Origin: a virus
Strand: one strand, 5' to 3'
Length of the DNA stretch: 64,000 nt
IMG/VR virus record: IMGVR_UViG_3300047095_000752
Coordinates: 181,226 to 245,225 of that record
A model generated the notes under the pieces. It was not told the origin of the DNA, searched no databases, and saw only the letters and a list, made by a program, of their open reading frames with translations. Positions within the stretch are counted from its first letter, which is position 1. Each line of letters opens with the position of its first letter. The translations under genes and the position numbers were made by a program. Positions 909 through 17,762 of the stretch are shown here, in pieces.

Positions 909-918
909 ACTAAATATA

Positions 919-1347: not shown

Positions 1348-1360
1348 ATAAGGGTTTGAT

Positions 1361-2962: not shown

Positions 2963-2975
2963 TTATAATCCTAAA

Positions 2976-3013
2976 AATAATTCGTTATATTAAAATTAAT
3001 ATAACGAATTATT
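2976..3013 (-). terminator. AT-rich hairpin between thyX and the endonuclease gene
   Basis: A perfect 17-bp inverted repeat (2976-2992 and 2997-3013) with a 4-nt loop occupies the short gap after the thyX stop codon. It is AT-rich and lacks a long T-tract, so it could instead be an mRNA-stabilising hairpin. Confidence 0.6.
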
Positions 3014-3030
3014 ACGTTGTTGGTTTCATA

Positions 3031-3810
3031 TTAGATCTTGTGGTTCTCGAAGGTCCATTCCCCGTCTTCATTCCGACTCATATCTTGATAAATGTTTGGA
3101 AACTCTTCCTTAAGTAAAGTAGCAATTTTATCAAATACAACTCGAATTTCTATCTCAGCGTGTTTGGATGTACGAAGCTCGATGACATGTCGTAGAGTCC
3201 GGTGATTGGCGGTGAAGACCATCTTACACATCTTACCTGTAGGGGCAATGCGTCGGAATGCGGAAGTTAAAATCTTCTTAGTATCAAAGTCTTTAATATT
3301 ATCAATGTCATATATTTTTTCGAGTTCTTTAATTGATTTTTCAACACTTAGAACCGCATCTTGAAATACTTTATATGCTTCTTCGTTATCTTTAATAATA
3401 TCTGGAGCATACATAGAAATATCGTCGCAACGAATGTATCGATCTGATGACTGTGCATAGGCGGTTCCTGCCCTATGCCGGACTAACTCATGAGTAGCTA
3501 CACGAGATAGCTCCAACAGAAATCCGACGTTACAATGCTCTAGAACTGAACCGTGCCCGGATTTAAGAATGTTATTGATATAGATATCATTACCTTCTCT
3601 TACACGAGAAATATTCTTATTTTCAAATGTACCATCTTCTTTAGACCACGATTCATAGCAATTTCTACCGGCAAATTCAATTAATGATTCGGCACAGGTA
3701 ACACCAAGTGCTGGTTTCCATGCGATTTCATTGTCGCTAAGATAATCCCACAGTCCTGATGTAATTTGAGTCTTTGAAATGATATACACTTTGGGGTCTG
3801 TAATTCTCAT
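3031..3810 (-). CDS. thyX: FAD-dependent thymidylate synthase ThyX
   Basis: This 259-residue protein, near the usual ThyX length, converts dUMP to dTMP using methylene-tetrahydrofolate, FAD and NADPH. The ThyX signature RHRAGTAYAQSS (R111-S122) is intact and is followed by the expected RY. GHGSVLEHCNVGF (residues 85-97) and the late RTLRHVIELR block are further conserved ThyX regions. It supplies thymidylate for phage replication independently of host ThyA and works alongside the class II reductase at 15046-17031. The start is preceded by AAAGGAATTTCA. The gene is followed by a hairpin and a homing endonuclease gene. Confidence 0.96.
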   Translation of the reverse strand: MRITDPKVYIISKTQITSGLWDYLSDNEIAWKPALGVTCAESLIEFAGRNCYESWSKEDGTFENKNISRVREGNDIYINNILKSGHGSVLEHCNVGFLLELSRVATHELVRHRAGTAYAQSSDRYIRCDDISMYAPDIIKDNEEAYKVFQDAVLSVEKSIKELEKIYDIDNIKDFDTKKILTSAFRRIAPTGKMCKMVFTANHRTLRHVIELRTSKHAEIEIRVVFDKIATLLKEEFPNIYQDMSRNEDGEWTFENHKI

Positions 3811-3867
3811 TGAAATTCCTTTGTTGCGGTTTCGGTTGGATTATTATATCATACGAATTTCAAGGCA

Positions 3868-4290
3868 TCAATACTTCTTACCATAATATATAGACTGTTC
3901 ACGTTCATGCCGAATTTTAAAATCTATTAGAATGTTACTTATTATATTCCACATCATACTATGCAGATTTAAATCCTCTAATTCTTCATTCACAATATTA
4001 CCATCACTGACGCTTAGAAGATCTGTACCATCCAATGTAAACCTCACTGCTAGACCTAATAGTGTTGGAATACCATAAAATTTAATATGTTTAGTGGGAG
4101 CTTGAATATACACGTCCCCTAATTTCATGTTCATCTTATCATTTGGGCTGGTGTTATGTATTGGTACCGTCGCTGTATAAATATTAGGATAAACTTGAAC
4201 CTCATTAAAAGTACAATTTACAAATATATCACCTTCTTTATAATTTAATATATCATCATTTGTTAATATTTTATTCGTGGTTATATACAT
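3868..4290 (-). CDS. hypothetical protein
   Basis: A 140-residue soluble protein with a beta-rich first half (NCTFNEVQVYPNIYTATV ...) and a helical C-terminus ending in basic and Tyr residues. GGAGGTTTG-like sequence precedes the ATG. It starts 14 bp after the end of 4304-4681, so it belongs to the minus-strand operon that includes the LigD-type polymerase gene. No domain is recognised. Confidence 0.65.
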   Translation of the reverse strand: MYITTNKILTNDDILNYKEGDIFVNCTFNEVQVYPNIYTATVPIHNTSPNDKMNMKLGDVYIQAPTKHIKFYGIPTLLGLAVRFTLDGTDLLSVSDGNIVNEELEDLNLHSMMWNIISNILIDFKIRHEREQSIYYGKKY

Positions 4291-4303
4291 AACAAACCTC
4301 CAG

Positions 4304-4681
4304 TTAGGTGAAAGAGTAACTAAACTTTATAAGGTTTTTATCAAATTCTTCAGATCTATACAAATAAGCGAAGTTATCTAATTCATTCTTAAACTTATCA
4401 AATCCCATATCATCCAATATATAATCGAGTCTAGTACATATATCATACATATTTTGATTATATTTAACATTACCATCCCTTGGTTTATCTCTTGGTGATA
4501 GACCTCTCGGACCTAAAGTCATACGATAGGTTTGATCTTTAAATACATTTATAATATGACCGAGATTATCATCCTTTGTAATTTGGGAGGTTACCGAAAC
4601 CATTTCGATAGAATAATACCACGTGTATTCTAATTGGGTATATCCTAAATCATGTAAATTTTTTGGTTGAGCGCCTTGCAT
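4304..4681 (-). CDS. hypothetical protein overlapping the primase-polymerase-like gene
   Basis: A 125-residue protein whose start lies inside the 3' end of 4650-5336 (32-bp overlap), implying coupled translation. It has a charged, Tyr-rich composition with GPRGLSPRDKPRDG in the middle and a helical C-terminus. No family is recognised. The overlap makes a functional link with the polymerase-like protein possible but unproven. Confidence 0.65.
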   Translation of the reverse strand: MQGAQPKNLHDLGYTQLEYTWYYSIEMVSVTSQITKDDNLGHIINVFKDQTYRMTLGPRGLSPRDKPRDGNVKYNQNMYDICTRLDYILDDMGFDKFKNELDNFAYLYRSEEFDKNLIKFSYSFT

Positions 4682-5336
4682 TATTCAAGTCCTTTAGTTG
4701 TATATATCGACATACTGTTAGATTCCTGTTGAGAGCATAGGGTACAGTTAAACTACCCCTAGACTGCATAGCAACTAAATCTAAATTAATCATACCAGCA
4801 TTTCGAGTTGACGGCTTTTCATTTATAGCATATATACCTTGAAATTTAGATGTCAACTCACTCTTAGTTATAGCTAATGCTTGTTTATAAGACTGAGAGT
4901 TTATATCAACTCTAAAGTGATATCCAGTAGAACTAATTGTAACATAGCACTTATATCTATTATATAATTGAAATAGATCCGTTACACATTTCTTTAAATC
5001 TTTTTCTGTAATCTTATTAGATCTACTGTCTATGTCAATTATTTTTTGTCGGAGAGTCTGACCGGGATATTCACTTTCGACAGATATGGAAACTGTGTAG
5101 CCAGTTATAATATCTTCATAGTTATCTTTATTTAATATTATAGCCGAATCTTTATATTTACGAACTACGGTGAAGGAATCGTGTGTATCGTATTTATTAA
5201 ACAGTAAAACTTTTCTGTAATTACACTCCTTAAGTATTTTGTCTTTGTTTGAAATGTAATACTCGTACAACTCACCTGTAGTCGTACGAGTATTACCAAC
5301 TGTTATTGTCTTGTCTGGTTCCGATGGTTGCGGCAT
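4650..5336 (-). CDS. LigD polymerase-domain-like archaeo-eukaryotic primase (stand-alone PolDom)
   Basis: The 228-residue protein carries the ordered motifs of the archaeo-eukaryotic primase superfamily as arranged in bacterial LigD polymerase domains. These are GELYEYY near the N-terminus (residues 21-27), the metal-binding IIDIDS (D101, D103), STGYHFRV (S136, H140), and the late NLDLVAMQSRGSLTVPYALN, where D186, R193 and PY 199-200 match the LigD 'iDylrN..g.T.vapYSlR' block. LigD PolDoms normally have about 280-300 residues, so this is a short version. Expected activity is template-dependent nucleotide or ribonucleotide addition at DNA ends or priming. A separate LigD-type phosphoesterase lies at 31485-31910. 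The assignment rests on motif order only. Confidence 0.62.
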   Translation of the reverse strand: MPQPSEPDKTITVGNTRTTTGELYEYYISNKDKILKECNYRKVLLFNKYDTHDSFTVVRKYKDSAIILNKDNYEDIITGYTVSISVESEYPGQTLRQKIIDIDSRSNKITEKDLKKCVTDLFQLYNRYKCYVTISSTGYHFRVDINSQSYKQALAITKSELTSKFQGIYAINEKPSTRNAGMINLDLVAMQSRGSLTVPYALNRNLTVCRYIQLKDLNNARRSTKKFT

Positions 5337-5344
5337 AATATCTC

Positions 5345-5764
5345 CTAGCCTCTATAACGATGATAATGCATTTCTATATATTTACCGTTTTTCAATTCTC
5401 GTCTTGTTGATTGATGTAGAACACGAAGAGTATTCCCATTCAAGTTAGACTTTGTATGTAGTTTATGGTTTATTTTATTTTTAAACCCTATATTATACAT
5501 AAGTTTTTTAGACATGAATCTATTTTTAGTTTCTAAAAATCTTTTAATAACATAGGGGCTTATGGAATACATCCACTGGTCGGACATTGGTAGATACTCA
5601 CATGCACACCAATTATAAAGATTATCGTAAAAATATGACTTTAAACTTTTATTACATTTTATATATTGTAACATATTTAGACGTGGTCGATATAAGATTA
5701 AATTTGTAAGCAGAGAGTAATTTATCATAGATTTTACTAAATACATTCTGGTTAAGTCGGACAT
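5345..5764 (-). CDS. hypothetical basic aromatic protein
   Basis: A 139-residue protein, strongly basic and Tyr/Leu/Asn-rich, with a moderately hydrophobic N-terminus (MYLVKSMINYSLLTNLILY). It lies directly after the two paralogous genes 5767-5970 and 5957-6187 and just before the polymerase-like gene. Its composition fits the small fast-evolving proteins found in other clusters here, but alignment is not convincing. Function unknown. Confidence 0.55.
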   Translation of the reverse strand: MSDLTRMYLVKSMINYSLLTNLILYRPRLNMLQYIKCNKSLKSYFYDNLYNWCACEYLPMSDQWMYSISPYVIKRFLETKNRFMSKKLMYNIGFKNKINHKLHTKSNLNGNTLRVLHQSTRRELKNGKYIEMHYHRYRG

Positions 5765-5766
5765 AT

Positions 5767-5970
5767 CTAAGGTTCAACCATCAAGAATTTTTTGAAATAT
5801 TTATTACCTCGATATAAGTCGAACCAATGCCCATTAACAAAGCCAAATATAGAAATGTATAGTAAATTAGTATAAAATGCGAATGTATTATATGTATCGT
5901 ATTCAAATATGAAAATTCTAAATATACGCCTAATGCCGGACCAACAACGTGTAATTTTATCTATAATCAT
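5767..5970 (-). CDS. small paralogous protein, copy 2 of a tandem pair
   Basis: The start is placed at ATG 5970, which overlaps the end of the upstream paralogue by 14 bp; an upstream extension would lie in the other gene's frame. The 67-residue product shares with 5957-6187 the pattern RRIF-x2-FI, F-x-F/Y-x-N, G-F-x-N-x2-W-x2-LY and YFKKF, so the two arose by tandem duplication. The proteins are hydrophobic and aromatic and may be membrane-associated. No known family. Confidence 0.6.
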   Translation of the reverse strand: MIIDKITRCWSGIRRIFRIFIFEYDTYNTFAFYTNLLYISIFGFVNGHWFDLYRGNKYFKKFLMVEP

Positions 5971-6187
5971 GACATTTAACCCAATCGTCTGAAAAGAATT
6001 TTTTGAAATACACAGTACTATCGTATAACTCTTTCCATTGGTCATTAATGAAACCATACAATGTGATGAAGGTCATATTTGCATATACTGTAAATGTATA
6101 AAATGAATTACGAATCTGGTTTCCTATAAAACATGTAAATATGCGTCTAATTATACCCATACATATTCGGATGTTCGTTTCAATCAT
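5957..6187 (-). CDS. small paralogous protein, copy 1 of a tandem pair
   Basis: A 76-residue protein whose ATG overlaps the stop of the RlaP-like gene (ATGA). It contains IIRRIFTCFIG, FYTFTVYANMTFITLYGFIN and YFKKFF, aligning along its whole length with the next gene (5767-5970). One hydrophobic stretch in the middle could contact membrane. Function unknown. Confidence 0.6.
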   Translation of the reverse strand: MIETNIRICMGIIRRIFTCFIGNQIRNSFYTFTVYANMTFITLYGFINDQWKELYDSTVYFKKFFSDDWVKCHDYR

Positions 6188-7044
6188 ACATTGAACCTAT
6201 CTATAACTTTTTGCATTTCAGATAATATGGATTCTGCTTTGGTGTTGCGAGGTACCATTTTATCTAAAGATCCATAGTGGGCTTCAAGGCAATTCAATAG
6301 AAGTTCCTTAATTGGTTCATACTGTATGTCGTGAGGGAGAGAAGTAGTTTCATATAGTGTCTGGAGTGTCTTTTCTTTTTCATAAAAATGATTTTCAACT
6401 TGATCTAAGTTCCACTCTCCCGCGCGTATTGACTTCCACCGTTCTCGATCCCGTTGCATGTCCATATCACCAAATTGTAATAATTGTTCAGCATAATCTA
6501 TTAGTCGAACGATGTGATATGCGAATTTAGTATCAAATCCGTATTTATCTATTAATTCTTTTCTTTTACCGGAATTTGGATCTTTATTTTTCAATTTTCG
6601 TAATTGAGAATACGCATAGCCTTTGTAAGTGTGCCAGAGCTTAGAACATAAGAACTTATGTCTATTATTACGAACCATCTCACCGATCTTGGTCATATGG
6701 CATATACAATTATCAGGAACAAATAAACTGTCGATCATATTTGGATTATTATTTACACATAAATCAAAATACTTTACAATATTAAATATAGAAAAATCTA
6801 CGTCGTCATAACACTTCTGAAACTGATCGAATCCTTGTGGTCTTCGTCCGAATCCTTCTATATGCCCTCCAATTTGATGAGGAAACAGGATCAATTTTGG
6901 GGGCATACAGAAGCCATACACATCTTTATCGGAATCTCGGTTATGGACTCCGTATGCGAAACTGCCCATGATCACCTCATATTGGACGCTATCGATCATC
7001 CACTTTGGACAATCCTTCTGGACTTGTTTGTGTTGTTTGAACAT
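6184..7044 (-). CDS. RlaP-like nucleotidyltransferase
   Basis: The 286-residue protein has the nucleotidyltransferase signature GSFAYGVHNRDSDKDVYGF (residues 27-45), that is GS-x3-G-x4-DSD-x-D. It matches the predicted nucleotidyltransferase family typified by RlaP, widespread in large phages. DSDKD supplies the metal-binding acidic residues and a third acidic residue is likely in VDFSIF. The substrate is unknown; relatives are thought to act on RNA or nucleotides. It is followed without gap by small paralogous genes and preceded by an HNH endonuclease gene. Confidence 0.8.
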   Translation of the reverse strand: MFKQHKQVQKDCPKWMIDSVQYEVIMGSFAYGVHNRDSDKDVYGFCMPPKLILFPHQIGGHIEGFGRRPQGFDQFQKCYDDVDFSIFNIVKYFDLCVNNNPNMIDSLFVPDNCICHMTKIGEMVRNNRHKFLCSKLWHTYKGYAYSQLRKLKNKDPNSGKRKELIDKYGFDTKFAYHIVRLIDYAEQLLQFGDMDMQRDRERWKSIRAGEWNLDQVENHFYEKEKTLQTLYETTSLPHDIQYEPIKELLLNCLEAHYGSLDKMVPRNTKAESILSEMQKVIDRFNV

Positions 7045-7056
7045 CTAGTTTTTCTC

Positions 7057-7587
7057 CTATAAAACATGTTTCCATAATTTATAATTAATAATTCTTGATA
7101 TTGCGGTTAGAGATACATTAAATATTTTTGCTAATTCTTTTTGTTCAAAATATTTATTTTTATGGGATATTCTAATTATACTAACTATCTTATTATTTAA
7201 TTTAGATTTTCCAATTTTTTCACCTTTAGCAGTTAAGTTATTTTGCGCGGCGTGTTTCATATTTTGGGAATGAGTACACCATTCCAGATTATCTAATCTA
7301 TTATTTAACTTATTTCCATCAATATGATTGATAATAGCACCTTCAAAATATTTCTCAGGTCGAAAACTCAACAGTACTAATCTATGAATTGTACAAATTT
7401 TTTTATTTTTATTTTTAGATAATGTGACGTGTAAATATCTCTTACCATTTGGTTTTAATATCTTTTCAGGATCGTTAAATTTAGATCCACCGGCACCTAT
7501 AATAAAACTTTTAACTCTACCAAAATTACTAACTTGATACATACCCTCATATTCAGGTATATCTTTCCAAATTTCTTGTATATCCAT
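7057..7587 (-). CDS. HNH homing endonuclease with NUMOD4 domain
   Basis: A 176-residue protein. Residues 1-40 (EIWKDIPEYEGMYQVSNFGRVKS) form the NUMOD4 DNA-binding module. NHIDGNKLNNRLDNLEWCTHSQN (about residues 88-111) is the HNH core. The C-terminus is a helix-turn-helix-like segment (QKELAKIFNVSLTAISRII). It is paralogous to 11963-12484 and 34903-35415. It sits between the RlaP-like gene and 7605-7784, as an intergenic mobile gene would. Confidence 0.92.
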   Translation of the reverse strand: MDIQEIWKDIPEYEGMYQVSNFGRVKSFIIGAGGSKFNDPEKILKPNGKRYLHVTLSKNKNKKICTIHRLVLLSFRPEKYFEGAIINHIDGNKLNNRLDNLEWCTHSQNMKHAAQNNLTAKGEKIGKSKLNNKIVSIIRISHKNKYFEQKELAKIFNVSLTAISRIINYKLWKHVL

Positions 7588-7604
7588 ATTGTTGGTCCTT
7601 TAAT

Positions 7605-7784
7605 TTAATGATTACTCTGCTGCCATTTAACATGATCATAAAATTGTTTTGAGAGTTCCGTGCAGTTAGGATTGTCTCTCGGTATAGATGTGAATAGGGT
7701 TAGAGAACCCACACTATAATAAAGAATAATATTATTTTCAGTGTTATATTCCAATACTTGTTTTAAGCTTTCTTCAAGTGGCAT
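7605..7784 (-). CDS. hypothetical small protein
   Basis: ATG 7784 overlaps the stop codon of the upstream gene (ATGTGATG) and an AGAGG motif lies within the end of that gene; a GTG one codon upstream is an alternative. The 59-residue product is MPLEESLKQVLEYNTENN... with a short hydrophobic centre. No family recognised. Confidence 0.55.
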   Translation of the reverse strand: MPLEESLKQVLEYNTENNIILYYSVGSLTLFTSIPRDNPNCTELSKQFYDHVKWQQSNH

Positions 7785-8410
7785 CACATTACCTCTTTAG
7801 GAGTATAAGGAATAAATTCTGCATTCATAGACTTATATATTGGAGAACCGATGTTCTTATATCGTGTGAATATAAATTTTTGCTTTAAATAACAATCTTT
7901 ATGTTCAACTGTTAAATCCCCATCGACCGTTAACTGCCCGAGTATCTTACACTTTATATCAACTCCATTAACAAGATATGGATTAAAATATTCACCGCTA
8001 AATTTAGAACTTCCTTTATGATTTTGGAATAAATATACTTCAAGTTCTTTATCTGTGGTGTGTTTCAAATTGAGTTTCAATTTATATTCAATCATATCGT
8101 ATGGAATTTGATTAACGTCTAACCAATTCCAAAACATATCAATGCGTTTAATATTATTTTCACAATATTTAGAATGTAAGTTTAAATAATTTAAGTCTTC
8201 AATCTTAACATCCACATCCCACTTTTCTTGCATCTCCTTACGAAGAAGAGTTAGGAACCATTCTGATTTACTATATTGCCAATGGGACTCACCATACTCG
8301 CCGTCCATGTTATAAAAAAATGTATTAAATAATATCCCCAGTGGAGAATCGAAATTATTATCAAAATTATAAAATTTTTCCATCTTATATGGGATCATAA
8401 CTTTTACCAT
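7784..8410 (-). CDS. hypothetical protein
   Basis: The start is placed at ATG 8410; a GTG three codons upstream at 8419 is also possible. The protein of about 208 residues is rich in aromatic and acidic residues (KFYNFDNNFDSPLGILFNTFFYNMDGEYG split over residues 12-40) and beta-rich at the C-terminus. It is translationally coupled on both sides. No domain recognised. Confidence 0.62.
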   Translation of the reverse strand: MVKVMIPYKMEKFYNFDNNFDSPLGILFNTFFYNMDGEYGESHWQYSKSEWFLTLLRKEMQEKWDVDVKIEDLNYLNLHSKYCENNIKRIDMFWNWLDVNQIPYDMIEYKLKLNLKHTTDKELEVYLFQNHKGSSKFSGEYFNPYLVNGVDIKCKILGQLTVDGDLTVEHKDCYLKQKFIFTRYKNIGSPIYKSMNAEFIPYTPKEVM

Positions 8411-8415
8411 AGGAC

Positions 8416-8601
8416 TCACTTCAATACCGTAGTTGTTATTTTCAATACAGGCTCACTGAATACAATAAATTCATTATTACATGCTTTACATGTGCTTTTA
8501 AATTCATCCGCTATCATTTTAATGTTATCATTTAATTTATGGTCGGTAGTACAAAATGGACATACAACCATATCAATTGCAACTTCACTAACTCTAGACA
8601 T
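8416..8601 (-). CDS. zinc-ribbon small protein
   Basis: A 61-residue protein with two CxxC pairs, CPFC (residues 14-17) and CKAC (about 38-41), separated by about 20 residues, the layout of a rubredoxin-like zinc ribbon. It probably binds one zinc and may contact nucleic acid or protein. It is co-transcribed with its neighbours. Confidence 0.7.
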   Translation of the reverse strand: MSRVSEVAIDMVVCPFCTTDHKLNDNIKMIADEFKSTCKACNNEFIVFSEPVLKITTTVLK

Positions 8602-8611
8602 TTCAGACCCT

Positions 8612-8917
8612 TTACTTTCCGGTGAAAAAATTCATTCCAAATTGAAATTGTTTGTGGTATTTTAGCTTACCACATAGTAGTAAAACACAATCCAAGTTAT
8701 GACTAACAAACGCATATACTTGAAATGAGTTTACAGTTTGACCGCAAATACCAAATGGGCTAGTACCACCAACCTGAGTCCACGCATAAAAATCTACATG
8801 ATCATCGATATAAGCATGATTATTGATGTCAGGTTCTTGCTTCTTTAGTGTGTTTAGTATATCATATTTATATGCCGCAAAGAAGTCCCAATTAATGGGG
8901 TCGTGTGGGTTACTCAT
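8612..8917 (-). CDS. hypothetical protein, first gene of the minus operon
   Basis: A 101-residue protein beginning MSNPHDPINWDFFAAYK with AAAAGGTAATC upstream as ribosome binding site. The middle is beta-rich (DFYAWTQVGGTSPFGICGQT). It heads the long minus-strand run 8917 to 145. The upstream intergenic DNA has a consensus TTGACA at 9053-9058 (minus) without a convincing -10 box. Confidence 0.62.
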   Translation of the reverse strand: MSNPHDPINWDFFAAYKYDILNTLKKQEPDINNHAYIDDHVDFYAWTQVGGTSPFGICGQTVNSFQVYAFVSHNLDCVLLLCGKLKYHKQFQFGMNFFTGK

Positions 8918-9110
8918 TTTTGATTACCTTTTGTTTTATTGATTGTATATAAACATTTATGATAAACTTTATTCACAGTTGACGTATTAATATACACCAT
9001 AAAATTAAAAACCGATCAAAATGCGGTAAACTATGCTCTAAAGTGGCAGAAAACTGTCAATTTTTTATGGTATGTAACTTGCTTAGTATATACAACGGAG
9101 AACAACAACA

Positions 9111-9917
9111 ATGTCAATTTTCAAAAAAATTATACTTAGTTTAGGTGTTACATTATGTAGTTTAAATTCATATGCAATTACAGTTGATGGAAACTGGGAC
9201 GATTGGTTTTCATATTCAGGTAACATTGGTTTTAACACATGGCGTGAAAATCTAGTAACAGTTAACAACCCCAACATTCGTTTTCAAAACGATGAAGAAG
9301 GACCCACACCCGGTGGTGGTGGTCAGTTATATGATATAGAGCAAATCTTCTATGCATTTTCAGATAATGATCCCAACGCTATAAGTGGTGGTAAACTTTA
9401 TATTGGACTTGTAACGGGATTTCCACCACAAGGTGTTCCCGCAGATGCTCTATATGCTGGTGATCTTTTCATTGACATCGGTGCTACTGGTAGTTATACA
9501 TTTGCTATTAACTTAAGTGAACGACAAGCCGACGCTTCTCGCTTCAATCAAGGTTGGATCAATGTTAACTGGGATACAATAGACACAACATTTTATCCAG
9601 CAGCAAACCCATATCGAGTTGATGAAAATGGACCCGGTGTATTCAATTATACAACTTCATTAAACCCCGTTGTAGAAACCAATCTACACGGAAAGCATTA
9701 TTTTTATGAAATTTCAATCGACCTAGACAGCATCATGGAAGAACAGTTAACAAATCCAAATGGTGGTATCGGTCTACATTGGACTATGGAGTGTGGTAAC
9801 GACGTTATCGATGTCGTGGATAACACCCCTTTAAATCCAGTGCCCGAACCTAGTACAATCGCTCTGCTAACAATGGGTTGTATTGGGGCTGCATTTCGTC
9901 GTAAATTCAGCGCATAA
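9111..9917 (+). CDS. secreted PEP-CTERM sorting-signal protein
   Basis: This 268-residue protein has a classical signal peptide (MSIFKKIILSLGVTLC, cleavage likely after NSYA at residue 22). The C-terminus has the full tripartite PEP-CTERM signal: VPEPS at residues 244-248, a hydrophobic segment (TIALLTMGCIGAA) and a basic tail (FRRKFSA). PEP-CTERM proteins are cut and anchored or exported by exosortase EpsH-type enzymes of Gram-negative bacteria that make exopolysaccharide. The mature domain is Asp/Asn/Gly-rich and beta-like (ITVDGNWDDWF) and may resemble a carbohydrate-binding fold, which is inference. It is the only plus-strand gene in the first 15 kb, with its own terminator, which is typical of a cargo (moron) gene. 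Confidence 0.9.
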   Translation: MSIFKKIILSLGVTLCSLNSYAITVDGNWDDWFSYSGNIGFNTWRENLVTVNNPNIRFQNDEEGPTPGGGGQLYDIEQIFYAFSDNDPNAISGGKLYIGLVTGFPPQGVPADALYAGDLFIDIGATGSYTFAINLSERQADASRFNQGWINVNWDTIDTTFYPAANPYRVDENGPGVFNYTTSLNPVVETNLHGKHYFYEISIDLDSIMEEQLTNPNGGIGLHWTMECGNDVIDVVDNTPLNPVPEPSTIALLTMGCIGAAFRRKFSA

Positions 9918-9932
9918 AAATAATTAATAAAA

Positions 9933-9967
9933 ACATCCCCGTATATATCTTTATACGGGGGTGTTTT
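9933..9967. terminator. bidirectional terminator between PEP-CTERM gene and 9951-10310
   Basis: A 13-bp stem (acatccccgtata / tatacgggggtgt, one G-T pair) is followed by T residues on the plus strand and by A/T-rich sequence on the minus strand. The minus-strand gene stops inside the right arm. Confidence 0.85.
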
Positions 9968-10310
9968 CGTTTATAGGGGAAGTCTCATCCGGATATAATA
10001 TATTCTCAGCTATGCAAAAATAATCTATTAAATCACCACCACACACAGAACATACCACTTTATGATAACCCTGACCATTGCCATGCATAATATGTTTATG
10101 GTTTACAGGAGCTTTACACTCAATACAATAATCCAAATGCTTACCGTCTTCTTTCCAATATTTCTTTAACTCTTCAAGTTGAGCTTGATATGGTATTAAT
10201 TGTTCAATTAAGGCGATTAGATCTCTTATCTGATGTTGAGTATGTGGTGGAGCGGAATATAAATTATTATTAATTTCATTTATTCTATTCTTGATATCAT
10301 TCACTTCCAT
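9951..10310 (-). CDS. hypothetical protein with coiled coil and zinc ribbon
   Basis: A 119-residue protein. Residues 1-55 form a helical, likely coiled-coil region (DIKNRINEINNNL ... ALIEQLIPYQAQLEELKK). Residues 62-100 carry CIEC and CSVC pairs plus His residues (NHKHIMHGNGQGYHK), a zinc ribbon. Its start overlaps the stop of 10297-10452. Function unknown. Confidence 0.7.
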   Translation of the reverse strand: MEVNDIKNRINEINNNLYSAPPHTQHQIRDLIALIEQLIPYQAQLEELKKYWKEDGKHLDYCIECKAPVNHKHIMHGNGQGYHKVVCSVCGGDLIDYFCIAENILYPDETSPINENTPV

Positions 10311-10452
10311 CGTCTATATCCTTATCTTGAATATTATCTTTTTTAATTTCAAGTTTTTCGTCAGCATCATCTACTCCCATATTAATTGCAATTCCCCATA
10401 TAATAAATCCAACAATTCCGATGACATACCATAATTCGTTTTCGTTTCCCAT
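10297..10452 (-). CDS. 51-residue single-span membrane protein
   Basis: The frame runs from ATG 10452 to TGA 10297 with AAAGGAAAT six bases upstream. The product starts MGNENELWYVIGIVGF and continues IIWGIAINMG, one membrane span at residues 8-25, followed by a highly charged acidic and Lys tail (DDADEKLEIKKD). It overlaps the next gene by 14 bp, supporting real translation. It may be a small holin-like or membrane-modulating peptide, but nothing specific identifies it. Confidence 0.65.
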   Translation of the reverse strand: MGNENELWYVIGIVGFIIWGIAINMGVDDADEKLEIKKDNIQDKDIDDGSE

Positions 10453-10462
10453 TTAATTTCCT

Positions 10463-10537
10463 TTACGACCTATCTATTATTAGACAAAATGCTATAACCC
10501 AAATCAAAACTATACAAAATAAGTAAGTTGAAGTCAT
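10463..10537 (-). CDS. 24-residue membrane micropeptide
   Basis: A tiny frame (MTSTYLFCIVLIWVIAFCLI + IDRS) whose ATG overlaps the TGA of the upstream gene 10534-10866 (ATGA). It ends just before the ribosome binding site of the next small membrane protein gene. Nearly the whole peptide is one hydrophobic span. Support is only the overlap and composition. Confidence 0.4.
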   Translation of the reverse strand: MTSTYLFCIVLIWVIAFCLIIDRS

Positions 10538-10866
10538 GGGAGTTTTGTACCGTTTATATAAATTGTATTGTTTGATCCTGTTATATGAATTTCTTGATGA
10601 AATGGTAAATTAGATTGTGAAGTTGGGATGGTGGTTGGATCTGGATTTATATTTATATCAATAGTTTGATTTGGTGGGATGGTGTAGGGTACAACAGGAG
10701 TTGTAGATTCGATTTGTATTACATCCGGTTCAGTTTCAATTTCATTGAAGGTCATGCAAACTCCGATGAACAATATTATACACCCAATTGATATACCCAA
10801 TAAAAAGTAATAATCAACAATATCCATATTCTTTATTTTTTCTTTAACTTGGTCTAAATTAAACAT
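10534..10866 (-). CDS. membrane-anchored protein with Pro/Thr-rich extracytoplasmic part
   Basis: A 110-residue protein: short charged N-terminus, one hydrophobic span at residues 18-40 (YYFLLGISIGCIILFIGVCM), then a Thr/Pro/Ile/Asn-rich region (STTPVVPYTIPPNQT) and a beta-like end (IHITGSNNTIYING). The layout resembles phage spanin or holin accessory proteins, but there is no lipobox or other signature. It is coupled to 10463-10537. Confidence 0.6.
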   Translation of the reverse strand: MFNLDQVKEKIKNMDIVDYYFLLGISIGCIILFIGVCMTFNEIETEPDVIQIESTTPVVPYTIPPNQTIDININPDPTTIPTSQSNLPFHQEIHITGSNNTIYINGTKLP

Positions 10867-10877
10867 TCAACTTCCCT

Positions 10878-11072
10878 CTACAGTTTAGTTTCACCATTTA
10901 ATGCGCGTAATCTTTTATCTACACTGTATCTAAGTTCTTTTACTTCTCGCTCTAGTCGTTCTTCTTTAGTCTCTCCATACTCGTCTCGATCCACGGCTGC
11001 ATCCGCCACTTGTTCGGCTAATACCAACCTACGCAGTAACCGATTATACTTCTTTCGACTTATCCATACCAT
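10878..11072 (-). CDS. small charged helical protein
   Basis: The start is taken at ATG 11072 with AAAGGAAAAGC upstream; a TTG one codon before is possible. The protein has 64 residues, with more than a third Arg, Lys, Glu or Asp, and is predicted helical (RKKYNRLLRRLVLAEQVADA). It overlaps the end of 11044-11364. Unknown function. Confidence 0.6.
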   Translation of the reverse strand: MVWISRKKYNRLLRRLVLAEQVADAAVDRDEYGETKEERLEREVKELRYSVDKRLRALNGETKL

Positions 11073-11364
11073 CAAGCTTTTCCTTTAAGTGGTTTAGAGT
11101 TTGACCTAAATCCTCAATATATTCTTCTAATAATTCTATTCTGTGTTCGTCTGATATTGCTTGTCGTTGATATTTTGCCATCTCTTCATAATAGTTTAGA
11201 TTTAATTCAGATGGGATATAGTAAGGTGGGTTAATTCTAGGCGCAGACACTAAACGATCATTTAAACGCTTTTGTTCTACCTGCTCAATATTCTCCAACA
11301 ACTTTATATCTTCAGCAGACAACAAATCATATATAGTTTTAGTATTTGGATCGTTATGATACAT
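11044..11364 (-). CDS. hypothetical helical protein
   Basis: The start is uncertain. ATG 11364 (MYHNDPNTK) has GAGGGACTTTC upstream and is preferred; ATG 11388 (MAVRRGTF) overlaps the stop of the HldE-like gene but lacks a ribosome binding site. The 106-residue product is helical with a coiled-coil-like C-terminus (EHRIELLEEYIEDLGQTLNH). No family. Confidence 0.6.
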   Translation of the reverse strand: MYHNDPNTKTIYDLLSAEDIKLLENIEQVEQKRLNDRLVSAPRINPPYYIPSELNLNYYEEMAKYQRQAISDEHRIELLEEYIEDLGQTLNHLKEKLDGMDKSKEV

Positions 11365-11387
11365 GAAAGTCCCTCGTCTGACTGCCA

Positions 11388-11957
11388 TTATTTTTGTTTA
11401 TTAAGACGATCTTCACAGATGCACCGAATAGATTTAGTATTAGCCTCAACTTGATTTATAAGGTGAGTTGTGCTGTATTGATTATAAAAAGGTAAAAATA
11501 AAGGCGTTATGTTATATTCCTTAAAAATATTCTTTTCATTTTGCGTCATAGATTCGTAACTGTACTGATCTGATTTAATAAAATAATCTGGACGTATCGC
11601 CTTAAGAACACCATCAATAACAGGCGCATCGAAAATAGTCACATAATCAACATAAGAAAGACTAGCTAAAAAGAAGGCGCGGTCGTCTTGATTTAGGATA
11701 GGTCTACTCTCACCTTTTAGAATCTTAACTGATATATCTGAGTTCAACGCAATAATAACAGTATCAATAAAAGATCCATCAACTTCAAAGTATTTGGCTC
11801 GGGAGATCAGATCCAAGTGACCGGGATGCGTAAGATCGAAGCAACCACCGAGCATGGCTACCTTGTGATCCGGATTTGTATTTTTAAGATTCTTTAGTAT
11901 TTCATCTGGGGATTTAACTTTTTCGATAAGAATATCATTTTTAGTTTGATTGTACAT
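11388..11957 (-). CDS. HldE/RfaE-type nucleotidyltransferase (cytidylyltransferase-like fold)
   Basis: The 189-residue protein aligns with the C-terminal ADP-transferring domain of HldE. It has GGCFDLTHPGHLDLISRAK with HPGH at residues 44-47, IALNSDISVKILKGESRPI, RAFFLASLSYVDYVTIF, PDYFIKSDQY and the late STTHLINQV. In bacteria this domain joins heptose-1-phosphate to ATP to give an ADP-heptose donor; related enzymes use other sugar or polyol phosphates. The HldE kinase domain is absent. It lies near a heptosyltransferase-like gene (12486-13433), with an HNH gene between them, so a heptose-like sugar is a reasonable but unproven substrate. Confidence 0.82.
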   Translation of the reverse strand: MYNQTKNDILIEKVKSPDEILKNLKNTNPDHKVAMLGGCFDLTHPGHLDLISRAKYFEVDGSFIDTVIIALNSDISVKILKGESRPILNQDDRAFFLASLSYVDYVTIFDAPVIDGVLKAIRPDYFIKSDQYSYESMTQNEKNIFKEYNITPLFLPFYNQYSTTHLINQVEANTKSIRCICEDRLNKQK

Positions 11958-11962
11958 TTATA

Positions 11963-12484
11963 TTATCCTTTATAGTTCCATGATTTATTGTGTACTACAT
12001 CGTATATACACGTATCCGAAACATTGTACTTAGCCGCCAATTCTCTTAGGCTGTATTCTTTATTCGAATATTGATATCGAATTTCTTCAGCCTTTTCATA
12101 ATTTAATTTCCGCTTTTTATATCCAATTTGAGGAACCATAAGTCCAGTTTCATAAGCATGATTTATATTTTCTTTTTGTGTCACCCATTCTAGATTGTCG
12201 ACGTTATTATCAGTCTTTACACCATTAATGTGATTGACTTGAGCGCCCTCGAAATAAGTATCCGATTTAAATGCTCTAATAACAAGCTGATGCACACAAT
12301 ATGTTTTTGATTTTTTATCTTTAGTTAAATCTAATTTTTTATAGCCATATGTATTTAAATTAGGTTTTAGAATTGTGCCTAGACCTTTAGATCCAGTACC
12401 GGTATGAAAACTCTTTATATTACCTAAATTACTAACTTGATATTTATTATCAAAATCTTCTATAGCTACCCAAATCTCTTCCAT
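11963..12484 (-). CDS. HNH homing endonuclease with NUMOD4 domain
   Basis: A 173-residue paralogue of 7057-7587 and 34903-35415. NUMOD4 module EEIWVAIEDFDNKYQVSNLG at residues 2-21, HNH core QVNHINGVKTDNNVDNLEW (about 83-101), C-terminal helix-turn-helix (LRELAAKYNVSDTCIYDVV). It is wedged between the HldE-like gene and the glycosyltransferase-like gene with gaps of 5 and 1 bp, consistent with homing into that operon. Confidence 0.92.
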   Translation of the reverse strand: MEEIWVAIEDFDNKYQVSNLGNIKSFHTGTGSKGLGTILKPNLNTYGYKKLDLTKDKKSKTYCVHQLVIRAFKSDTYFEGAQVNHINGVKTDNNVDNLEWVTQKENINHAYETGLMVPQIGYKKRKLNYEKAEEIRYQYSNKEYSLRELAAKYNVSDTCIYDVVHNKSWNYKG

Positions 12485-12485
12485 A

Positions 12486-13433
12486 TTATCCTTTATTCTT
12501 CAGCCATTGATAGATCTTACCGGGAATGTATGTCGCAATATCGATGTGGTCCATTGGCGTTGGAGAACTTATATAATTTGAGATCTTAAATTGACCTTGA
12601 ACACCAAAACAATTTTCAGATCCATAGACTCGGTTACATAAATGTAGCGGACCCGACAAAACACCAACACAATACTTAGATTTTTTCACAACATCCAGAA
12701 GTAAATCGGGGTGCATAGGTTTATTACGGATTGAATACTTCTCATCGATAAAAGATGGTAGCGGAACTTTACTAAACACGATATTCGACGAACTGTTGAT
12801 ATGCACATCAAACGGCTGATATCCAGCATCTACGATTTCTTTCCAAATTGCGGCTTGAATATTTTCATTTGGGATCTTGATCGATTTGTCCGTATGCCCG
12901 GCGAAGTGATAAACAACTTGCTTGGAATCTTTGTTATCGAGATCGAAATTAAATGTATGAGTCTTTAATTTTACATTATCCCAACCAATTTCAACAAAAG
13001 CACACATTTCATTTTTAGATCTGTTTATGATTTGATCTGGTTTGGTTGATGGGTGTCTAAAATCGCAGTACCGGATATTGGCTATAATTTTATACTTCTT
13101 AGAAAGTTCTTTCATATTGTAACGGAAGAATACATTATCAACTCCCTGTACAATACTAGATCCGTACGGGATAACAAATTCTTTATTAAGGTCTGAAATT
13201 TTAATAATATCAGGGTGTAAATTTGTATAGTCGAGAGATGGGTGGTGACCAATGTTGAAAGTCCATTTTGGATATGCTTCTTTTAAAGTTACATATAGAT
13301 CCAGAAATTCAACAATGTCACCAATGCCGTGGTCAAAGATCAACAGGACTTTACCCGGACTGTATGTATCTAAGTAATGAACTAATTTATTTTTTGAGTT
13401 TGCAATTAAATTTTCTAATTGAATCGATTTCAT
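12486..13433 (-). CDS. heptosyltransferase-like (GT9-type) glycosyltransferase
   Basis: The 315-residue protein has a GT-B-like layout. The N-terminal domain has VLLIFDHGIGDIVEFLDLY (the G-x-GD loop of GT9 enzymes) and the C-terminal domain has VVYHFAGHTDKS, KIPNENIQAAIWKEIVDAGY, DEKYSIRNKPMHPDLL and SKYCVGVLSGPLHLCNRVYG, the donor-binding S/G-P-x-H region. ADP-heptose:LPS heptosyltransferases share this pattern. The acceptor could be host glycan, virion protein or modified DNA. A sigma70-like promoter lies directly upstream and an HNH gene separates it from the HldE-like gene. Confidence 0.7.
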   Translation of the reverse strand: MKSIQLENLIANSKNKLVHYLDTYSPGKVLLIFDHGIGDIVEFLDLYVTLKEAYPKWTFNIGHHPSLDYTNLHPDIIKISDLNKEFVIPYGSSIVQGVDNVFFRYNMKELSKKYKIIANIRYCDFRHPSTKPDQIINRSKNEMCAFVEIGWDNVKLKTHTFNFDLDNKDSKQVVYHFAGHTDKSIKIPNENIQAAIWKEIVDAGYQPFDVHINSSSNIVFSKVPLPSFIDEKYSIRNKPMHPDLLLDVVKKSKYCVGVLSGPLHLCNRVYGSENCFGVQGQFKISNYISSPTPMDHIDIATYIPGKIYQWLKNKG

Positions 13434-13453
13434 GTTATACTCCTTGTATCTAT

Positions 13454-13483
13454 ATTATAATATAACCGACTAAATGTATACAA
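13454..13483 (-). promoter_or_regulatory. sigma70-like promoter for 12486-13433
   Basis: On the minus strand TTGTAT, an 18-bp spacer and a perfect TATAAT lie 21 bp upstream of the ATG. Confidence 0.7.
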
Positions 13484-13484
13484 G

Positions 13485-13519
13485 AAAAAACTACCCGACT
13501 CAGATTAGAGCCGGGTAGT
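13485..13519 (-). terminator. terminator after 13529-14803
   Basis: An 8-bp stem (actacccg / cgggtagt, 14-nt loop) is followed on the minus strand by six T residues, 9 bp after the stop codon of the GC-rich gene. Confidence 0.85.
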
Positions 13520-13528
13520 ATATTTTGG

Positions 13529-14803
13529 TTATCCGAGAATCTCGCCGATGAGATCCTTGGATATTAACGAATCCATGATGGCTTCGTTAAGGTTCGACTG
13601 TACAGTCGGGTTGAGTACACCCGCCCGCTGCAGAAGCTTAGCCGCCGCCTCAATACAATGAATTCTGTCTACAAGGCTTCCGGATTCCTCACTGGACAGA
13701 ATCTGGTACACTCGGTCGGCGAGTGTATTTTCTTGTTTCGTGCGGGTGGTATGAGTCGGCGTTCTGAGAACCGGTTCTTGGGAAACCGACTCTACAACCG
13801 ACTTTGTCGTGGGCATCTCGGGAGCCGGGTGAGGAAATCCCTTTTCCTTGTTGATGATCTCGATTGCCCGTTGCACCCGCAGGGCATTGGTCTCATCATT
13901 TGGTGAGAACTTAATCTCACCACTCGTGAGACTCCTCGGGCTGATCGCAGCCACCTCTCTCATGTTGGTCAGCCACCGACCTTTACCCCGGTGAGCGATC
14001 CCCTTGTCGCAGCCACTTGTAAACGCCATGTAATTAATGGCAGCAACCGTGGCTGTCCCGATTGAACCAACCTTGATGGAATCTCCCACCTTCGCCGCCT
14101 TCAGCAATCTTACAGACTCATCCACAAGGCTGTCACAGACAACCTTGCGCTTCATACCGTGCCTCGCGGCGCGGCGTTCCTCTATCATAACCACGTTTTC
14201 TTCTCCCTTCACTTCACCCAATATCTTTGGTGTATCAGCTTCCGCTGCAACCATATCCGGTATTTCAATTTCAACCGGTTCAGCGCCAACAGCGATATCT
14301 TTAATCTCATGTCCCTCAACATCGACAAGCGAATGGGAGGGGGTTAATACCACATGGATTGGCTTCTCCACCTTTTCAAGTTCCGCAGCGGAATTACCAC
14401 TCCAGATGTCCTTGATGTACGTATTCGAAGACTCCCCACACTCCAGTTTCAATATCTTCACCGCCGCCGCCGCCCGTGAACTGTTCGTGTCCACAAACGG
14501 TGAAAACCTGATGCGGCGCTTCTCGATATTGGTTATATCGATTGCGATCAGGTCTGCCCGCGTCAGGGACTCGCCTTGACGGTGAGCTTTAATACCAACC
14601 GAGCCACCGAGGCAAAAAGCAGCCCAATTGATATTACACACCAACTGGAAGCTCTCCTTTGTCGCCATGTTGAATTTCACGGTCGACCCCGGTCCTTTAC
14701 CTCCAGATTTTAGTTCTTCAACAATCGCTATAACAGTAGCATCATCGAAGAACTTCGGTCTTGTAGGACCGATTGAAACGGTCCTCATCTTCATATCAAT
14801 CAT
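13529..14803 (-). CDS. GC-rich gene for a protein with a duplicated ~95-residue domain
   Basis: The start is set at ATG 14803 behind AAGGAG; an upstream in-frame GTG (14824) would overlap that site. The 424-residue protein contains two related domains. The first has NINWAAFCLGGSVGIKAHRQ, LTRADLIAID and RFSPFVDTNSSRAAAAVKI; the second has INYMAFTSGCDKGIAHRGKG, NMREVAAISP and KFSPNDETNALRVQRAIEI. A Val/Glu-rich linker joins them and a helical C-terminal region follows. No known family fits. Its base composition is much more GC-rich than the neighbouring genes, and the conserved TATATATA element lies 52 bp upstream. Confidence 0.75.
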   Translation of the reverse strand: MIDMKMRTVSIGPTRPKFFDDATVIAIVEELKSGGKGPGSTVKFNMATKESFQLVCNINWAAFCLGGSVGIKAHRQGESLTRADLIAIDITNIEKRRIRFSPFVDTNSSRAAAAVKILKLECGESSNTYIKDIWSGNSAAELEKVEKPIHVVLTPSHSLVDVEGHEIKDIAVGAEPVEIEIPDMVAAEADTPKILGEVKGEENVVMIEERRAARHGMKRKVVCDSLVDESVRLLKAAKVGDSIKVGSIGTATVAAINYMAFTSGCDKGIAHRGKGRWLTNMREVAAISPRSLTSGEIKFSPNDETNALRVQRAIEIINKEKGFPHPAPEMPTTKSVVESVSQEPVLRTPTHTTRTKQENTLADRVYQILSSEESGSLVDRIHCIEAAAKLLQRAGVLNPTVQSNLNEAIMDSLISKDLIGEILG

Positions 14804-14855
14804 ACCATCTTTCACTCCTTCCACGAGTTAGTTGAAAACCACAATTAAGTTTGGA

Positions 14856-14877
14856 TTCAATAATTAATATATATAGT
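14856..14877 (-). promoter_or_regulatory. TATATATA-class phage promoter-like element, site 1
   Basis: The minus strand reads ACTATATATATTAATTATTG, matching the consensus shared by ten sites in this window. It is 52 bp upstream of the start at 14803. Confidence 0.65.
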
Positions 14878-14911
14878 CTATATTTATAAGGGAAATTTTT
14901 TGTCAAATCGA

Positions 14912-14941
14912 TTGGATCTTTTAGCAAAAGAGTGGTACAAT
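14912..14941 (+). promoter_or_regulatory. sigma70-like promoter for the ribonucleotide reductase gene
   Basis: TTGGAT, 18-bp spacer, TACAAT. It leaves a leader of about 100 nt before ATG 15046 in which I see no convincing riboswitch. The rest of this intergenic region holds element site 1. Confidence 0.5.
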
Positions 14942-15045
14942 GATGGTATCTATACAAACCATATAGACGGTTGTATTGGCAAAGTTTAGAATTCAAATTT
15001 TAAGACAAATGATTATCATACAAAAAACACAGGAGTTTAATTTTT

Positions 15046-17031
15046 ATGAGTCGTGACGAAATGAATGAATGGATCTTCCCAATTAAAGAACGCTTTAAAC
15101 TAAGTGAAAAGTTTCTAGAAGATTTCATAGATAAAGAACCGAATTGGGGTCCACTGGGTAAATTAACATACAAGAGAACATATGCTGCCCGTGTAGAGGG
15201 CGAAGATCGCACCGAAGAATGGTTTGAAACCGTAAAGCGAGTCGTAGAGACATGTTACACGATTCAATTAAATCATTGTAAAAATTTAAGACTCCCTTGG
15301 AAAGCACATACAGCACAAAAGTCCGCCCAAGAAATGTATACTCGGATGTTTACTTTTAAGTTTATTCCTCCGGGGCGCGGACTTGCTAATATGGGTGATG
15401 TTATTTTTAAACGTGGATCTATGGGGTTATTCAATTGCTCTGCGGTATCCACTAACAGCACAAATTTCTCAGATCCATACGTTTTCATGATGGACGTTTC
15501 AATGTGTGGAGTGGGATGTGGATTTGATACAGAAGGATCCGGTAAATTCAAATTCGTAACACCAAAAACAACAGATAAGCCACATATAGTGGAAGACTCT
15601 CGTGAAGGGTGGTGTGAGATCCTCCGAGTTGTTCTTGAATCATATGTTGGTAAAGAACACTTACCTACTAATATTGATTATTCTCAGATCCGAAAGATTG
15701 GATCTCCTATCGTAACATCTGGCGGCACTGCTCCCGGTCCAGAACCTTTAATTAATTGTATAAATAAAATTCAAGAAATAATGAATAAACGAATTGACTA
15801 TGATATTTCATCTAGTGATATTGTTGATCTTATGAATATTATTGGAGTGTGTGTTGTAGCTGGCGGGAAAAGGCGCACAGCCCAGATAGCCTTTGGACAT
15901 TACAACGATCAAGAATATATTTCATTGAAGGATCCGGATCTGCACCAAGAAGAATTAATGACCCACCGTTGGGCGTCAAATAATAGCATCTATGCTCAAG
16001 ATGGAATGGATTACACCAATATTATTAATACAATTAAAAAGTCTGGCGAACCCGGAATTCTTTATAAACATCGTATGCAAAATTATGGTCGTTTGAAAGA
16101 TGGGTATCAAGAAGGCATTGATGGTAAGGCTACACTGCTTAATCCATGCGGTGAAATTTCGCTGGAGAGTGAAGAACTCTGCAATATAGCGGATGTCTTC
16201 CCGGCGCACCATAGTTCCTTCGAAGATTTTAAACGTAGTCTCAAATTTGCATTTCTATATTGCAAGTCGGTCACGCTCGTACCTACACATTTAACCACAA
16301 CAAATTCGAAAATCCTAAAGAACCGCAGAATTGGAATCTCTCAGTCTGGGATCGTGCAAGCAATCCAAAAGCACGGTACAACCGAATACTTCCGTTGGTG
16401 CGATGAAGGATATCAATACCTCAAAAACTTGGATAAAAAATATTCAGACTGGCTATGTATCCAGAAAAGCATTAAGATTAGCACGGTTAAGCCGAGCGGA
16501 ACGACATCACTTCTGTGTGGGTCTACGCCGGGGATTCATTTTGAACACTCCGAATATTATATCCGTCGAATTCGGATTGAAGAAACCAACGAACAATTGA
16601 TTCAATCGGTTAAAGATGCTGGCTATAAGTGGGAAGTATCCGCTTATGGTGATCGTTCCATAGTATTTGAAATACCCGTCAAGGCTGAGAACTTCTATAA
16701 AGGGAAGTCGGACGTTTCGGTTTGGGAACAAATGCAACTTGGATCTAAGATTCAATCAATTTGGGCGGATAATAGCGTTTCACAGACAGTGCACTTTACC
16801 AAAGACGAATCCCTCTATCTTAAAAATGTAATTGAAATGTACGAAGATCAGTTGAAGACCGTATCATTTCTACCCCTGTCGGATCACGGATATATACAAG
16901 CACCGTATGAGTCAATAACCAAGGATCAGTACGAAGAAATGAGCAAGAATATAATCGCAATAAACTTTAAGTTTAAGAATACACAAGACACCATCGAGAA
17001 ATTCTGTGATGGTGATAAGTGTATGATCTAA
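15046..17031 (+). CDS. nrdJ: class II (adenosylcobalamin-dependent) monomeric ribonucleotide reductase
   Basis: The 661-residue protein resembles the monomeric ribonucleoside-triphosphate reductase of Lactobacillus leichmannii. The redox Cys lies in FNCSAVS (C131), the radical-site region is NPCGEISL (C368) with the second active-site Cys 11 residues on in ELCNIADVFP (C379), and the C-terminal shuttle pair is C654/C659 in CDGDKCMI. VKPSGTTSLLCGSTPGIH is the conserved substrate-binding segment. It reduces ribonucleotides to deoxyribonucleotides with a B12 cofactor, works in aerobic and anaerobic cells, and feeds phage DNA synthesis with ThyX. An ACAGGAG site precedes the ATG. Confidence 0.95.
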   Translation: MSRDEMNEWIFPIKERFKLSEKFLEDFIDKEPNWGPLGKLTYKRTYAARVEGEDRTEEWFETVKRVVETCYTIQLNHCKNLRLPWKAHTAQKSAQEMYTRMFTFKFIPPGRGLANMGDVIFKRGSMGLFNCSAVSTNSTNFSDPYVFMMDVSMCGVGCGFDTEGSGKFKFVTPKTTDKPHIVEDSREGWCEILRVVLESYVGKEHLPTNIDYSQIRKIGSPIVTSGGTAPGPEPLINCINKIQEIMNKRIDYDISSSDIVDLMNIIGVCVVAGGKRRTAQIAFGHYNDQEYISLKDPDLHQEELMTHRWASNNSIYAQDGMDYTNIINTIKKSGEPGILYKHRMQNYGRLKDGYQEGIDGKATLLNPCGEISLESEELCNIADVFPAHHSSFEDFKRSLKFAFLYCKSVTLVPTHLTTTNSKILKNRRIGISQSGIVQAIQKHGTTEYFRWCDEGYQYLKNLDKKYSDWLCIQKSIKISTVKPSGTTSLLCGSTPGIHFEHSEYYIRRIRIEETNEQLIQSVKDAGYKWEVSAYGDRSIVFEIPVKAENFYKGKSDVSVWEQMQLGSKIQSIWADNSVSQTVHFTKDESLYLKNVIEMYEDQLKTVSFLPLSDHGYIQAPYESITKDQYEEMSKNIIAINFKFKNTQDTIEKFCDGDKCMI

Positions 17032-17066
17032 CAAGAGTTAAACGAAATCCTTCGAAAGGGTTTAAA

Positions 17067-17762
17067 ATGATATCAGATATTAACAACTGTCCAGAAGTTT
17101 ATTACCCAGAAAAAAATATATTTACGGGTATAATTGAAAATATATTTAATCAAATTGGAACCACCAATAAATATTACGTCGAATTTGGATTTACTGATGT
17201 TGATGAACTATATGATAATACAACATTTCTAAAAAGGCATCATGGTTGGAATGGCTTGTGGATGGATGTAAGTCCGAATACAAAGTATAATAAAAAGAAA
17301 AATCCAGCCGTAAAAATCCATAAAATAACTGCAGAAAATATTAATGATTTATTTGAGTTATATAATGTTCCTGAAATATTCGATTTGCTAATCATTGATG
17401 TTGATTTTAATGACTTATGGATTTGGAAAGCATTAAATGAAAAATATAAACCAAGAATGTTAATGATCGAATACAATTTATTCGTACCACCCGGAGAAAG
17501 TAAAGTTGTTGCGTACGACCCCGACTTTGTTATAACTACGTATGACCAATATTTTGGCGGAAGTTTTGACGCATTATTAAAATTATCAAAAGAAAAAAAT
17601 TATCAATTAATTGGATGTTCGGATGCAAATATGTTATTCGTACCAAATGATTTAGTGGATGGTAACTTTATAATACCAGATGACATATATACTTTATATA
17701 TCCCACCAAATCCAAATAAACACACACACCCAAAATCAAATATGACCATGATAGACTACTAA
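17067..17762 (+). CDS. FkbM-like methyltransferase
   Basis: The start is set at ATG 17067 behind AAAGGG; an upstream ATG at 17019 lies inside the RNR gene. The 231-residue protein has the FkbM-type beginning YYVEFGFTDVDELYDNTTFL, then GWNGLWMDVSP and FDLLIIDVDFNDLWIWKAL, matching a Rossmann methyltransferase with its SAM and acidic motifs. Members of this family usually O-methylate sugars or small molecules, so it may belong to the glycan set of this phage. It is followed by a strong terminator. Confidence 0.65.
   Translation: MISDINNCPEVYYPEKNIFTGIIENIFNQIGTTNKYYVEFGFTDVDELYDNTTFLKRHHGWNGLWMDVSPNTKYNKKKNPAVKIHKITAENINDLFELYNVPEIFDLLIIDVDFNDLWIWKALNEKYKPRMLMIEYNLFVPPGESKVVAYDPDFVITTYDQYFGGSFDALLKLSKEKNYQLIGCSDANMLFVPNDLVDGNFIIPDDIYTLYIPPNPNKHTHPKSNMTMIDY

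Follow-up and report, generated by a model that had tools for sequence, protein, structure and literature searches.

The gene at positions 9111–9917 (+ strand) raises the questions of how a tailed phage came to encode a PEP-CTERM protein, a substrate of bacterial exosortase, and of what such a gene could do for a phage. The window analysed here is the whole 64,000-nucleotide stretch and comprises bases 181226–245225 of a 245,225-base IMG/VR virus record (IMGVR_UViG_3300047095_000752); coordinates refer to the window unless another source is given. A sequence-only reading of this stretch had described a secretion signal and a PEP-CTERM signal on the product of a stand-alone phage gene, and had taken these to imply an exosortase-bearing host.

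The gene, identified from the open reading frame (ORF) list, the PF07589 and TIGR02595 profiles, a family alignment and a tree, encodes a protein of 268 amino acids (aa), and a putative ribosome-binding site, GGAG (9097–9100, + strand), can be read 10 nt before the ATG. Residues 243–265 (9837–9905, + strand), which include a PEP motif, a hydrophobic helix and a basic end, match PF07589 with 26 bits (Pfam cut-off 20.7), and the tail matches TIGR02595 with 25.5 bits (NCBIfam cut-off 16); a helix spans residues 247–266 in the AlphaFold model. This product was the sole PEP-CTERM match across the 245,225-base record (E 3e-7). The N-terminus (residues 1–22, MSIFKKIILSLGVTLCSLNSYA; 9111–9176, + strand) has the hydrophobic core, positive residues and A-Y-A site of a putative Sec signal peptide, as judged by a heuristic scan rather than SignalP, and the product was among only 5 candidates found by that scan in 358 ORFs. 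The model places a helix at residues 3–17 of this segment. Both signals described by the sequence-only reading were therefore recovered, the sorting signal by two profiles above their cut-offs, and the signal peptide by the heuristic scan and the model helix. Going by its tail and N-terminus, the phage protein is of the PEP-CTERM sorted type, and its processing and its location at the surface or in the matrix are predicted. The model, which is of high confidence (pLDDT 89.7), is rich in beta-strands. No trustworthy structural relative of it was found in the PDB or BFVD and there was no PDB sequence match; as a structural relative was not found, no binding function is named here and no claim of carbohydrate binding is made.

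The record as a whole is that of a tailed phage. It encodes a PBS1/T4-like portal sharing ~22% identity with the portals of PBS1 and AR9 over 73–79% of the length, a beta-prime-type RNA polymerase subunit, two beta-type proteins, a family B DNA polymerase and gyrase B, with RNA polymerase genes located at G000:C1 51248–57993 and 77830–80313 (L004 and L006). The portal, RNA polymerase and family B DNA polymerase bear out the earlier assignment of the gene to a tailed-phage genome. Portal relatives were not found in viral contigs, and the beta-prime protein has many uncultivated IMG/VR relatives at 35–40% identity. None of 50 contigs carrying such beta-prime relatives, only 36–40% related and many of them fragments, contained a PEP-CTERM match, nor did the control genomes, though the same search did score in the present phage record and in five others from phages. 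As none of the 50 related contigs gave a match, the gene is probably a lineage-specific addition. The phage record was also searched for an exosortase, a check that the sequence-only reading had put forward, and no match was found.

Several other features of the window were recorded. A PhoH-like ORF of 783 aa (35400–37751, + strand) is apparently interrupted by an intein, as read from its translation. An ADP-heptose-synthase-like nucleotidyltransferase is found together with a number of ORFs that resemble glycosyltransferases, two of them in tandem, at 11388–13433 (− strand) and 31945–34286 (+ strand); these two groups are possible surface-sugar or glycosylation genes, and one tested ORF in each had no Pfam match. 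Patches of ~47–50% GC in this 35% GC genome were seen at 24223–25796 (− strand), where there are four small membrane-protein-like ORFs, and at ~37900–38600.

The PEP-CTERM gene is located between two genes on the minus strand, and since both neighbours are opposite in orientation it forms a single-gene unit. A hairpin of 15 pairs (approximately 9931–9966; −22.6 kcal/mol on the + strand) follows the gene and is a predicted terminator; in the terminator consensus scan it was detected for the minus strand alone, and it may thus act for both directions. An inverted repeat with a T-run, TGGCAG-AAAA-CTGTCA (9044–9059; −6.1 kcal/mol), is found just 5′ of the predicted promoter described below, and may be either terminator-like or an operator. 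Around the gene, sigma-70 promoters were not above chance. The arrangement is that of a moron, with oppositely oriented phage neighbours and a predicted promoter and terminator of its own, in agreement with the description of a stand-alone gene with its own terminator in the earlier reading. Single-gene moron layouts are common among exclusion genes, and this layout, together with the predicted surface destination, would suit superinfection exclusion by surface masking, in which the protein, once on the surface, covers or modifies the receptor that related phages use and has no role in the matrix. However, a host that already makes the same protein would hardly have its surface altered by display alone unless the phage version binds differently, and no receptor is known, making this explanation an unlikely one.

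No relatives of the phage protein were found in 50,697 phage records, none above chance among 72,556 plasmids, and none in IMG/VR, even with the most conserved motif of the family, WTMxCGND. Viral matches to a sequence pattern proved to be unrelated. The closest bacterial relatives, with 52–58% aligned identity, all belong to one group of genomes of Candidatus Hydrogenedentota, a phylum in which 13 of 68 genomes gave a match and five (G001, G002, G036, G037 and G038) a full-length one at >40% identity. Distant relatives (~26–34%) occur in Thermodesulfobacteriota, Omnitrophota, Poribacteria, Zixiibacteriota and other groups. In four genomes the closest copy is the last gene of a conserved cluster, following those for an exosortase, EpsI, a TPR protein that resembles PrsT, and a CRP-like protein. 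The exosortase and EpsI are fused in one open frame in G038, and an additional TPR gene is present upstream of the exosortase gene in G037 and G038.

In a maximum likelihood tree the phage protein was placed within the Hydrogenedentota clade (16 rows; support 99/98) as sister to the cluster copy of G037 (G037:C9; 90/82), and the node uniting it with the four cluster copies received 80/78, support for the inner nodes being moderate. The tail sequence KF[ST]A is common to the phage protein and the four cluster copies and is absent from the paralogues in the alignment (A2), and the phage protein retains the family residue at all 13 invariant alignment columns. No exosortase, EpsI or TPR neighbours were found beside the phage gene; as it stands alone, it is an orthologue by descent and not a member of the cluster. 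A complete sorting signal on an orthologue of the cluster's own substrate raises the possibility of an exosortase decoy, whereby phage substrate floods the host exosortase, host PEP-CTERM proteins are left unsorted, and a looser matrix lets progeny escape or spread more readily. A decoy and nothing else would have no need of the entire folded domain and all of the invariant residues, which have been retained, and this explanation is considered doubtful.

The composition of the gene also bears on its history. The GC content of the phage gene is 39% and its GC3 is 0.27 (0.265), which is phage-like, whereas close Hydrogenedentota relatives have GC contents of 54–64% and GC3 values of 0.57–0.82 (0.62–0.82 for the four cluster orthologues). 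The gene thus has the look of an old, ameliorated transfer, and there is good support for its having run from host to phage. The search for homologues that would separate host acquisition from a phage lineage thus favours a host-derived gene, with its nearest relatives in Hydrogenedentota and no viral relative carrying the WTMxCGND motif; a phage-lineage family was ruled out by this lack of viral relatives and by the result for the 50 related phage contigs. The sequence-only reading had named one finding that would overturn it, namely a bacterial segment joined to the phage contig by misassembly. A family that is bacterial and otherwise not seen in viral contigs could suggest such an artefact, but the phage-like GC and GC3, the phage genes on its flanks, where host genes are lacking, and the divergence from any known host copy (only 55–60% identity) make misassembly scarcely credible.

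A Hydrogenedentota host is further suggested by two other genes in the window. A class II ribonucleotide reductase (RNR; 15046–17031, + strand) shares 50–56% identity with Hydrogenedentota proteins versus 38.7% with the best phage protein. A GH9 glucanase with a CelD_N domain (44783–47101, + strand) shares 52, 47, 46 and 45% full-length identity with proteins of G037, G002, G038 and G036, respectively, whereas searches of four genomes from other phyla and of the 50,697 phage records gave no match to it. From these three genes we infer that the host probably belongs to Hydrogenedentota, the RNR and GH9 proteins having been compared with Hydrogenedentota and phages rather than with all bacteria. 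A DNA search of the 68 Hydrogenedentota genomes returned mainly gene homology (RNR and the PEP-CTERM gene) and short weak matches, and with positions 1–20000 of the window it revealed no CRISPR spacer link between the phage and this group. An exosortase is present in the predicted host group and none is found in the phage record, and a Hydrogenedentota host would therefore supply the exosortase that the phage is without. The exosortase-bearing host implied earlier can accordingly be given a proposed identity, a Hydrogenedentota group with a matching exosortase cluster. The GH9 glucanase has no signal peptide and is encoded near structural genes, and may therefore be a depolymerase carried on the virion that acts on the host matrix.

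A sigma-54-type promoter, TGGTATG-TAAC-TTGCT (TGGTATGTAACTTGCT), is predicted from the sequence at 9068–9083 (+ strand), where −24 GG and −12 GC elements are correctly spaced on the coding strand 5′ of the gene. It is a strict match to the consensus (pattern TGGYAYRN4TTGCW), which was matched once in the 64-kb window (0.16 expected), this same match being the only one in the 245-kb record. Sigma-54-like sites are also found upstream of many homologues in Hydrogenedentota and other phyla, among them most of the close host relatives; several paralogues are without a clear one. Of 140 ORFs in the host loci, only 4 had a comparable site in the 200 bp before them, each a member of this PEP-CTERM family, a count that excludes the cluster copies of G001 and G002, whose site is TGGCACG-N4-GTGCG. 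RpoN (sigma-54) is encoded in all five host genomes (G001, G002, G036, G037 and G038). Neither an RpoN match nor a PrsR-like regulator was found in the phage record, and a search of the hosts for PrsR (TIGR02915) gave many sigma-54-activator-like matches, none above the cut-off. A looser sigma-54-like site, TGGCACGGCAAATGCT (G000:C1 151786–151801, − strand), lies 80 bp before an ORF for a small heat-shock (Hsp20-like) protein (151260–151706) and may be due to chance.

An exact palindrome, GTCA-N4-TGAC, is present ~200–250 bp upstream in each of the four host cluster loci (L085 9879, L028 4762, L029 4799 and L087 8108). By its likeness to these, a one-mismatch copy at 8972–8983 was noted in the phage; sites with at most one mismatch number 13 in 64 kb, or 0.04 expected per 200 bp. 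This is suggestive of a candidate enhancer for a sigma-54 activator in the hosts, of which the phage copy would be a degenerate form. A point that is new here is that a phage cargo gene has a predicted promoter built, like those of its family in the hosts, on the sigma-54 pattern. Absence from related phages and a promoter of the type usual for the family in hosts would both be expected had a host gene and its regulatory region been carried passively, by chance and with no benefit to the phage. However, synonymous sites are saturated relative to the nearest orthologue (57 of 74 fourfold sites differ), yet the reading frame is unbroken, the signal peptide, the sorting signal and the invariant residues remain, as does the promoter core, and the composition is now phage-like, so that passive carriage is distinctly improbable.

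We therefore consider it fairly likely that the gene is a moron of host origin, that the PEP-CTERM gene of a Hydrogenedentota exosortase cluster was captured by a jumbo phage and retained as a unit of one gene under a predicted sigma-54-type promoter, and that its product alters the host surface or matrix. The predicted promoter and the proposed status as a host-derived moron refine the earlier reading, in which neither appeared. Transcription of the phage gene would depend on host RNA polymerase, host sigma-54 and a host enhancer-binding activator, after which Sec would export the protein and the host exosortase, acting on the PEP-CTERM tail, would direct it to the cell surface or matrix. There it could join, supplement or displace the host orthologue, changing the retention of exopolysaccharide around infected cells. 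The benefit might be aggregation of infected cells, shielding against competing phages, or loosening of the matrix through competition for exosortase. Expression, sorting and any effect on the matrix or on superinfection are here inferred from the sequence. As the phage has an RNA polymerase of its own, lytic growth may be a time when the gene is not transcribed with host sigma-54, and the sigma-54 promoter may matter most in early infection or in a carrier state. More tentatively, and with rather low confidence, a jumbo phage with its own RNA polymerase might keep one gene under the control of host sigma-54 and its activator so that infected or carrier-state cells show the phage version of the matrix protein only when the host matrix programme is on, which would amount to a conditional surface change that senses the state of the host.

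When IMG/VR was searched at the DNA level for the typical PEP-CTERM tail, 11 contigs matched, and all five that were checked by protein model (L112, L114, L116, L117 and L118) exceeded the TIGR02595 and Pfam cut-offs. Phage-family genes are found elsewhere on each of these contigs, encoding an endolysin, annealing protein and exonuclease in L112 and L117, a helicase in L114, an anti-repressor and DnaC-like loader in L118, and a primase in L116. At least four unrelated phages (L112/L117, L113/L114, L111/L118 and L116) therefore carry other PEP-CTERM genes. The L118 record (G076) includes two such genes. These findings suggest that phage-encoded exosortase substrates recur as a class of cargo, of which the literature searches turned up no description. 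They tie phages to exosortase/PEP-CTERM export, which in several groups of Gram-negative bacteria governs flocs and the matrix of biofilms, and the present gene also helps to predict, from gene relationships, that the host of this jumbo phage belongs to an uncultured phylum.

The phage gene can be compared with several known systems. As in other phage morons, a lone gene of apparent host origin, missing in relatives, is set between opposite neighbours with a predicted promoter and terminator of its own; it differs from them in that the promoter is of the sigma-54 rather than the sigma-70 type, and in having an exosortase substrate as cargo. The Hydrogenedentota cluster proteins (G037:C9, G001:C177, G002:C306 and G038:C39) resemble the phage protein in their full-length domain, signal peptide, PEP-CTERM tail, KF[ST]A sequence and upstream sigma-54-like site. 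However, their genes are chromosomal, high in GC and at the end of an exosortase cluster, whereas the phage copy is alone and AT-rich, with its predicted promoter close to the ATG and a degenerate palindrome.

The RpoN-dependent flocculation protein PepA of Zoogloea and Aquincola, which keeps exopolysaccharide on cells (PMC9850573), likewise has a PEP-CTERM signal and a sigma-54 promoter. It nevertheless belongs to a different family, as the phage protein matches floc_PepA (NF033554) at the sorting tail only, with 18 bits versus a cut-off of 80. The PEP-CTERM genes of other viruses are similar in having tails above the cut-offs and in being located on contigs with phage genes, but they encode unrelated domains and no sigma-54 site was found upstream of them, so that, among the phages compared, only the present one has so far been seen with sigma-54 wiring. 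Finally, 13 horizontally acquired viral proteins of the exosortase-tail family TIGR03118 were counted in hot-spring viral contigs (PMC11003980); these share an exosortase-type tail and a viral location with the protein described here, but belong to another family and were reported as a count only, without a mechanism, host or promoter.
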